This document shows, one piece after another, positions 15,437 to 16,566 of a stretch of 64,000 nt of DNA; position 1 is the first letter of the stretch, and each line of letters starts with the position of its first letter. The stretch comes from Acarospora socialis (taxonomy: Eukaryota > Ascomycota > Lecanoromycetes > Acarosporales > Acarosporaceae), in contig JAMYGW020000003.1 in the NCBI GenBank assembly GCA_025617375.2, positions 1,550,001-1,614,000 on the forward strand, in the 5' to 3' direction. The position numbers and the translations under genes are program-made. Under the pieces are notes generated by a model that saw only the letters and a program-made list of their open reading frames with translations, did no database searches and was not told the origin of the DNA.

Positions 15437-15624
15437 ACAAATTTAGAACACAGTCTGAAGCTTAGATGCAAATAGGGGGAAGGGTAGATTACCGAATTTA
15501 CTCTAGATTTGGGTAGATTTTAGAAGTGAATTCAAACTCTTGCGGGTAGATTTCAGATATTCACCATAATAAGTTGGTAAAGTGAAGTTATATGTTCAAT
15601 AAATCCACGATGAATTTTATGCGT

Positions 15625-15764
15625 GCTCCTATGGCTTAATGGTAAAGCGCATCACTCGTACGAGTACAAGCGATTATGATGAGATGTGGGTATTTTAAGC
15701 CGATTTCATGAATATATTTATCACTAACCTTAATGTAGTCTCAGTTCGATTCTGAGTGGGAGCA
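15625..15764 (+). tRNA. tRNA-Thr(CGT) with two intervening segments
   Basis: All parts of a tRNA are present: acceptor stem GCTCCTA/TGGGAGC with discriminator A (15764), D-arm GCTT-AATGGTA-AAGC, anticodon stem CATCA/TGATG with loop C-T-CGT-A...A (anticodon 15657-15659) and T-arm CTCAG-TTCGATT-CTGAG. A-box (TGGCTTAATGG) and B-box (AGTTCGATTCT) matches are good. The gene is 140 bp, 68 more than the mature molecule. Fifteen nt (15661-15675) sit at the canonical intron position after base 37. A further 53 nt (15686-15738) interrupt the variable loop and look like a spliceosomal intron; without them the variable loop is the normal 5 nt (AGATT). A single 68-70 nt tRNA intron is an alternative reading but leaves a C-A mismatch in the anticodon stem. 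A ten-T terminator follows 14 nt downstream. Confidence 0.8.
15686..15738 (+). other. spliceosomal-intron-like insert inside the tRNA gene
   Basis: The insert begins GTGGGT, ends ATGTAG and has a CACTAAC branch-point match ending 10 nt before the 3' TAG. At 53 bp it is the same size as many mRNA introns in this window. It splits the variable loop between AGAT and T. It also contains TTTT at 15692-15695, a weak pol III stop signal. Calling it an intron is an inference from these signals and from the perfect tRNA left on removal. Confidence 0.6.
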
Positions 15765-15778
15765 AAGTTGAATAAACA

Positions 15779-15788
15779 TTTTTTTTTT
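15779..15788 (+). terminator. RNA polymerase III T-run terminator of the tRNA gene
   Basis: Ten consecutive T residues begin 14 nt after the discriminator base of the tRNA-Thr gene, as expected for a strong pol III terminator. Confidence 0.8.
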
Positions 15789-15870: not shown

Positions 15871-16566
15871 ATGAACAACCTTCACAAAGCCGGCCAAGAG
15901 CCATGCTCCGATCGATCCACCCCCTCCCCCCCAATATCCATCCTCTTCGTCTGCCTCGGCAACATCTGCAAGCTTCCCCACTCCCTCCCCTTCTTCTCCC
16001 CATCAACCCCTCCCCTTCCCCCTCCCCAACAATTCCCAGACGCGCAACTAACAACCTACCCCCTACCCCCCACAGGCCGCTCCCCCATGGCCGAAGCCGT
16101 CTTCCGCTCCCTCCTCACCACCTCCTCCCCGCACCTCGCGCGCTTCGCACGCATCGATTCCGCCGGCACAGCCGCCTACCACGCCGGCGCCGCGCCCGAC
16201 CCACGCACCGTCTCCACGCTCGCCGCGCACGGCATCACGGACTACGTCCACTCCGCGCGCAAGGTCAGGAGTGAGGATTTCGGCGAGTTTGATTATATAC
16301 TGGCGATGGATGGGGAGAATTTGAGGAATCTGTTGCGGGAGAGGGAGAGGGAAGAAGAGGGTGATGTAGGGAAGGAAGAGGGGAAAGGGAAGGTGATGTT
16401 ATTTGGGGAATTTGGGGGGAGAGGTGCAGAGGAGGTGGTGGATCCGTATTATGGGGAGGGGATGGAGGGGTTTGAGGTTGCGTTTGAGCAGATGGTGAGG
16501 TTTTCGGAGGGGTTTTTGACGGAGGTTGTTGGTGGGAGGGTGGGGGAGGTGGAGGGACGGGTTTGA
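15871..16566 (+). CDS. low-molecular-weight protein tyrosine phosphatase
   Basis: Two exons, 15871-15967 and 16076-16566; 195 residues. The 108-bp intron has a GC donor (GCAAGC) and a CACAG acceptor, with a CAACTAAC branch. Splicing at these exact sites is needed to build the P-loop CLGNICRSPMAE (Cys-X5-Arg), since the intron falls inside the first base triplet of the second Cys. The general-acid loop is DPYYG near residue 158. These cytosolic enzymes dephosphorylate phosphotyrosine, by a cysteinyl-phosphate intermediate. The intron is a multiple of three without stops, so an unspliced message would still read through, inserting 36 residues into the P-loop and giving an inactive protein. The second half is very G-rich and Glu/Gly-rich, including a family-atypical acidic insertion (about residues 120-135). 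It begins about 100 bp after the tRNA gene. Confidence 0.88.
   Translation: MNNLHKAGQEPCSDRSTPSPPISILFVCLGNICKLPHSLPFFSPSTPPLPPPQQFPDAQLTTYPLPPTGRSPMAEAVFRSLLTTSSPHLARFARIDSAGTAAYHAGAAPDPRTVSTLAAHGITDYVHSARKVRSEDFGEFDYILAMDGENLRNLLREREREEEGDVGKEEGKGKVMLFGEFGGRGAEEVVDPYYGEGMEGFEVAFEQMVRFSEGFLTEVVGGRVGEVEGRV

Follow-up and report, generated by a model that had tools for sequence, protein, structure and literature searches.

A tRNA-Thr(CGT) gene of Acarospora socialis with a canonical 37/38 intron and a probable spliceosomal-type intron in its variable loop

A threonine tRNA gene of Acarospora socialis most likely carries two introns of different kinds: a 15-nt intron at the canonical position between tRNA nucleotides 37 and 38, and a 53-nt intron in the variable loop that has the signals of an mRNA intron. 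The gene lies in a 64,000-nt stretch of genomic DNA that was analyzed at its full length and is called the window below (64 kb). Judging from its sequence, the locus is most likely a nuclear gene for tRNA-Thr(CGT), and both the gene content of the window and its short introns suggest a filamentous ascomycete as the host. An ectopic spliceosomal intron in this nuclear tRNA is the most likely reading, and one in which we place good confidence. An earlier note had described the split gene, and its coordinates, segment lengths, and motifs all proved exact when checked again. The features relevant to this reading are as follows.

15588 to 15594, forward strand: TTATATG, a possible TATA-like element 31 to 37 nt upstream of the tRNA gene, proposed from sequence only.
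15625 to 15764, forward strand: the whole tRNA-Thr(CGT) gene (cmscan with RF00005; ARAGORN with introns allowed); its last base is A73 and CCA is not encoded.
15625 to 15660, forward strand: exon 1, with the acceptor 5' strand, the D arm, the anticodon 5' strand, the anticodon CGT, and A37.
15661 to 15675, forward strand: intron 1, 15 nt at the canonical 37/38 position, presumed to be a tRNA-endonuclease intron.
15676 to 15685, forward strand: exon 2, with A38, TGATG (the anticodon 3' strand), and AGAT (positions 44 to 47).
15686 to 15738, forward strand: intron 2, proposed to be of the spliceosomal type, which interrupts the variable loop after position 47 and is 53 nt long, with a GTGGGT donor, a CACTAAC branch site, and a TAG acceptor (shuffle and matrix tests).
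15722 to 15728, forward strand: CACTAAC, which resembles a branch site and is followed by the last 10 nt of intron 2.
15739 to 15764, forward strand: exon 3, with T48, the T arm, the acceptor 3' strand, and A73.
15779 to 15788, forward strand: T10, a probable Pol III terminator and the only run of at least seven T on either strand of the window.

The identity of the locus as a tRNA gene was assessed with several tools. A cmscan search of the window gave a single match above the gathering threshold, which is to the tRNA model RF00005 at positions 15625 to 15764 of the forward strand (46.8 bits, E = 7.6e-07). Likewise, ARAGORN found one tRNA in the 64 kb when introns of up to 150 nt were allowed, and this is the same locus. 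A separate tRNA-finding run over the window called no tRNA.

Removal of positions 15661 to 15675 and 15686 to 15738 leaves 72 nt, which ARAGORN calls as an intron-less tRNA-Thr(CGT). The variable loop of this product is AGATT, as previously proposed. The 72-mer had also been described as a perfect tRNA with every stem fully paired; all 21 of its 21 stem pairs do form, with the qualification that one of them, in the acceptor stem, is a T-G pair. Standard tRNA tertiary contacts follow established rules for positions 8-14, 15-48, 18-55, 19-56, 26-44, 13-22-46, 10-25-45, and 54-58. The corresponding contacts checked in the 72-mer are all of the standard kind (U8-A14, A15-U48, G18-U55, G19-C56, G26-A44, U13-A22-A46, G10-C25-G45, and U54-A58). 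In fold prediction, the minimum-energy structure of the 72-mer is not a cloverleaf (-21.5 kcal/mol) and the cloverleaf lies 0.5 kcal/mol higher (-21.0 kcal/mol), a small gap, given that the calculation takes neither modified bases nor tertiary contacts into account. The locus combines the sequence hallmarks of a functional gene, namely an intact cloverleaf, tertiary contacts, and a putative Pol III terminator.

This putative terminator, T10, starts 15 nt downstream of the tRNA gene. Its existence is not very rare in itself, as 14 of 100 shuffled versions of the window have at least two T9 matches (a T10 counts as two), and it is the placement of the run that is telling. Given that a run of at least seven T occurs only once in the 64 kb, counting both strands, T10 makes a clean Pol III end mark here. 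The earlier note had raised the concern that a TTTT within the 53 nt could disturb transcription. A run of exactly four T is indeed present (15693 to 15696), and the concern seems mild when this run is set against the putative T10 terminator. Fungal Pol III is thought to need T runs that are longer than TTTT.

The 53-nt segment starts with GTGGGT, ends with TAG, and carries CACTAAC followed by 10 nt, just as had been claimed. The further claim that it resembles mRNA introns of the window in both signals and size was borne out by comparison with seven introns of protein-coding genes. The seven local introns are 49 to 69 nt long (five of them 49 to 58 nt), a range that includes 53 nt, and they have GTAAGN or GTGAGT donors and CTRAY branch motifs with 10 to 14 nt from the motif to the end. 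By its GT...AG ends with a local-like donor, its CTRAY branch distance, and its length, the 53-nt segment thus has the attributes of a U2-type intron.

A splice-signal matrix was then used to grade this resemblance. The matrix leans toward GTNNG, CTRAY, and YAG motifs because its seven introns were hand-picked from a motif-first listing that already required them, and on this scale the 53 nt score 15.4 compared to 13.3 to 21.1 for the local introns when each is left out in turn. Since six of the seven local introns score above 15.4, the 53-nt segment passes as a local intron but is a weak one, chiefly owing to its donor (G at +3 and +4). Such a score is nonetheless rare: among 127,894 53-mers on both strands of the window, five reach at least 15.4, and among the 477 53-mers that begin with GT and end with AG, three do so, with the 53-nt segment itself included in both counts.

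The window contains genes for a chitin synthase, a gamma-glutamyltranspeptidase, a Sec1-family protein, and a low-molecular-weight phosphatase. Four of the seven matrix introns are backed by matches that cross the exon junction. Two of these are in the chitin synthase gene, where a residue-level alignment to a solved chitin synthase (PDB) crosses the junctions, and one each is in the gamma-glutamyltranspeptidase and Sec1 genes, where Pfam domains span the junctions. The remaining three have open frames alone as their support. A phosphatase GC-AG intron and the first sedolisin junction, which is a guess, were left out of the matrix, and an intron listing based on coding score and bare GT-AG ends was dropped as too noisy. 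The phosphatase gene, which lies just downstream of the tRNA gene, has an apparent 108-nt GC-AG intron at 15968 to 16075 (GCAAGC ... CAACTAAC ... CACAG); joining its flanks by hand yields NICRSPMAE, and the Pfam domain LMWPc spans the junction. A possible origin of the 53 nt as an introner-like copy of a neighbor was considered and rejected, as the segment has no relative elsewhere in the window, where the best other blastn matches are 10 to 14 nt long (E 2.1).

We evaluated how often such an arrangement would arise by chance. Strict signals were defined as GTRNGY at the donor and CTRAY located 3 to 22 nt before a YAG acceptor, all at boundaries that restore the tRNA. The shuffles were allowed any perfect anticodon strand within the first 60 nt or so, a variable loop of 4 or 5 nt, and any split. 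When the last 58 nt of the intervening sequence were dinucleotide-shuffled and positions 15661 to 15681 were kept, strict signals appeared in 3 of 200,000 shuffles, and when all 79 intervening nt were shuffled they appeared in none of 200,000. Bare GT and AG ends at restoring boundaries were found in 4,749 of 200,000 (58-nt shuffle) and 477 of 200,000 (79-nt shuffle). A perfect 5-bp stem alone is unremarkable by itself (33,007 of 200,000 in the 79-nt shuffle). In the real window, strict signals were carried by 27 of 3,324,100 virtual inserts of 45 to 70 nt taken from both strands, a count that includes the 53 nt and real introns. The abundance of the motifs provides no evidence, because the window holds 60 strict donor-acceptor pairs compared with a mean of 54.5 in 10 shuffles; the evidence is their placement at the boundaries that restore the tRNA.

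From these counts, we infer that the likelihood favors two introns by some orders of magnitude. Two factors must be set against this likelihood. First, a nuclear tRNA with a spliceosomal intron has a low prior, because we know of no precedent for one. Second, there are many tRNA genes in which a scan could meet a coincidence.

The predicted folds of the precursor bear on intron 1 and on the order of events. Intron 1 lies at position 37/38, as is canonical for tRNA introns, and ARAGORN places it at 15662 to 15676, one base beyond the placement given by the 37/38 rule. Once the 53 nt are taken out, the RNA has a cloverleaf as its minimum-energy fold (-24.5 kcal/mol). In this fold, a 4-bp helix joins anticodon and intron, and the 3' cut site of the 15-nt intron lies in a 3-nt bulge, TT|A, of the usual kind, which corresponds to a relaxed bulge-helix-bulge (BHB). 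The strict BHB form is absent at this intron, where two of four inner and three of four outer pairs are made. A perfect 12-nt palindrome, ACTCGTACGAGT, covers the anticodon and the start of intron 1 (15654 to 15665; blastn self match), and it could reflect either chance or anticodon-intron pairing.

With the 53 nt present, the minimum-energy fold is not a cloverleaf. The unspliced RNA folds freely at -36.2 kcal/mol, which is below both the cloverleaf forced for two introns (-31.8 kcal/mol) and that forced for a single intron (-25.9 kcal/mol). When the acceptor, D, and T arms were forced and the anticodon arm was left free, the best fold (-32.2 kcal/mol) had neither anticodon stem. In the free fold, TTAAGCC within the 53 nt (15695 to 15701) pairs with GGCTTAA in the D arm, in the region of the A box (15633 to 15639). 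This predicted misfold could delay folding until splicing has taken place, or it could be due to chance. Because the cloverleaf becomes the minimum-energy fold once the 53 nt are gone, the modeling suggests that the 53 nt leave first.

The alternative that survives best is a single long intron of 69 nt at the canonical 37/38 position (15661 to 15729), cut by the tRNA endonuclease, with TAATG (15731 to 15735) as the 3' strand of the anticodon stem and TAGT as the variable loop. Long anticodon-loop introns are of an ordinary kind. This structure is also what both programs report, give or take 1 to 3 bases: Rfam places a single insertion by aligning 72 nt against 3 model positions, and ARAGORN excises 69 nt as an intron and takes TAATG for the 3' anticodon strand. 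We think that the programs chose a single intron because one insertion is cheaper than two. If the gene has two introns, the presence of TAATG is a mild coincidence, because 28 of the 1,024 possible 5-mers would pair at four or more of five positions at this spot (G-U allowed), with two possible loop lengths. The strict BHB does not separate this alternative from intron 1 because the pairing counts are comparable. For 3' exons that start at 15729, 15730, 15731, and 15732, the inner pairs number 3, 1, 1, and 2 and the outer pairs 2, 2, 1, and 1 (each out of four), and the first of these is no worse than intron 1.

Other evidence makes a single long intron unlikely. Its anticodon stem is not fully paired, owing to a C30-A40 mismatch. 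By the tertiary-contact rules, U44, A45, and G46 would break the 26-44, 10-45, and 22-46 pattern, and the fitting A44, G45, and A46 would be lost. The forced fold costs about 6 kcal/mol relative to the two-intron cloverleaf and comes without the usual 3' bulge. Finally, the succession of a perfect stem and a full set of intron signals at exactly the restoring boundaries would have to be mere coincidence.

Less probable still is a dead or silent tRNA copy that acquired a 53-nt insertion with fortuitous or unused splice-like ends, the tRNA being supplied by intact copies. In fold prediction the insert disturbs the structure, and other Thr(CGT) copies are possible elsewhere in the genome, as the analysis covers the 64-kb window. 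Against a dead copy, no damage is seen elsewhere in the gene, whose 21 stem pairs and checked tertiary contacts are all intact. The unique T10 lies just downstream, the small 37/38 intron has been kept, and the splice signals are improbable by chance.

It is very improbable that the tRNA endonuclease removes the 53 nt as an ectopic intron of the tRNA type, in the way known from archaea and some algae. Introns outside position 37/38 are known from Crenarchaeota and the Guillardia nucleomorph in the available parts of PMC3978253 and PMC4033280, and a 4-bp outer helix of TGAG and CTCA is possible (four of four pairs), but both strands of this helix would be exon bases that belong to the anticodon and T stems, the inner helix makes one of four pairs so that a strict BHB is absent at the 53-nt boundaries, and GTGGGT, CACTAAC, and TAG are left unexplained. 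The missing BHB is weak evidence against the endonuclease, because many ectopic introns of the Guillardia nucleomorph are described as lacking a defined BHB (PMC3978253, in the part available). The strong evidence against an endonuclease intron comes from the splice signals rather than from the BHB failure. The proposal of the earlier note is upheld, by support that is inferential: the sequence fits two introns, one canonical at 37/38 and one of the spliceosomal type in the variable loop, better than it fits a single long anticodon-loop intron or an endonuclease intron at an ectopic site.

Relatives of the locus were sought in collections that are viral or prokaryotic and are thus uninformative about fungi. 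DNA patterns for the 5' half of the tRNA gave no matches in viral contigs or genome contigs, and a pattern for the 3' half gave none in viral contigs. A gapped tRNA pattern gave 24 and 8 matches in these collections; none of the 32 is a tRNA according to ARAGORN, and one of them ends where its stretch ends. A pattern for the nearby chitin synthase gene matched 30 stretches in viral contigs, none of which was confirmed as a relative. A literature search for strings of the tRNA sequence in paper texts returned no match.

Spliceosomal introns belong to Pol II transcripts, apart from a small number of ectopic examples in U6 and rRNA. The U6 snRNA gene of Schizosaccharomyces pombe has an mRNA-type intron in a Pol III transcript, for which reverse splicing is the proposed origin according to the available part of PMC10484740, which cites Tani and Ohshima 1989 and 1991 for this intron. 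The likeness to the tRNA gene is that an mRNA-type intron resides in a short, structured Pol III RNA (PMC10484740, same part). The U6 RNA differs in being part of the spliceosome, with its intron near catalytic nucleotides and thus a ready route for reverse splicing, whereas a tRNA is no such part. Moreover, a second intron, at 37/38, coexists in tRNA-Thr(CGT) only.

Lichen fungi have ectopic spliceosomal introns in rDNA, and these are removed from Pol I transcripts in yeast, as described in the available part of PMC8527467. Here the likeness is a short intron with mRNA signals in an ascomycete non-coding RNA, such as the 57-bp case from Cladonia grayi (PMC8527467, same part), and the difference is that the host is a Pol I transcript of a repeated gene rather than a tRNA. 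For fungal 18S genes, the part available of PMC11889510 recounts earlier reports of spliceosomal introns and adds a 355-bp intron of its own, for which reverse splicing is suggested.

Introns outside position 37/38 of archaeal and algal tRNAs are ascribed to the endonuclease (PMC4033280 and PMC3978253, as far as available). Those of Crenarchaeota include introns in the variable arm, and those in Guillardia nucleomorph tRNAs are ectopic introns (PMC3978253, in the part available). Archaeal, red-algal, and nucleomorph ectopic introns thus resemble the 53-nt intron in occupying sites other than the anticodon loop, among them the variable loop (Thermofilum, cited in PMC3978253), and differ in that they are attributed to the endonuclease, with GT-AG ends and a branch site absent from the description in the parts available. 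Canonical eukaryotic 37/38 introns are matched in position by intron 1 and differ from the 53-nt intron, which is located in the variable loop and bears mRNA-type splice signals.

The available parts of PMC13149111 and PMC6726248 make no mention of spliceosomal introns in tRNA. In the latter, tRNA-mapping reads are described as having been discarded, a step that would hide such an intron. Among the matches listed in a search of the open-licence literature, which leaves most subscription papers outside its scope, no report of a spliceosomal intron in a tRNA gene was found in the text available. Ectopic spliceosomal introns are already known from U6 and rRNA, and tRNA is an RNA class without a case known to us.

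If the preferred reading of an ectopic spliceosomal intron is right, Pol III would transcribe the gene up to the T10 terminator. The spliceosome in the nucleus would recognize GTGGGT, CACTAAC, and TAG, excise the 53 nt after position 47, and join T47 to T48. The precursor would then fold into the cloverleaf, after which the tRNA splicing endonuclease and ligase would remove the 15-nt intron at 37/38. The longer intron would have been inserted into the tRNA, perhaps through reverse splicing with a later return to DNA. We consider it rather likely that maturation of this tRNA needs both the spliceosome and the tRNA endonuclease and that the mRNA-type intron was gained by insertion.

Such a gene would make the supply of one threonine tRNA dependent on spliceosome activity. 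It would also mean that the spliceosome can act on a Pol III RNA that is very small and tightly folded, and that one tRNA can be processed by two unrelated splicing systems. Because this would be a clean intron gain in a gene whose ancestral sequence is deducible at nearly every base, it could serve to test the idea that introns arise by reverse splicing. Similar introns may be hidden in published genomes, because tRNA finders misplace them, as Rfam and ARAGORN seem to do here.
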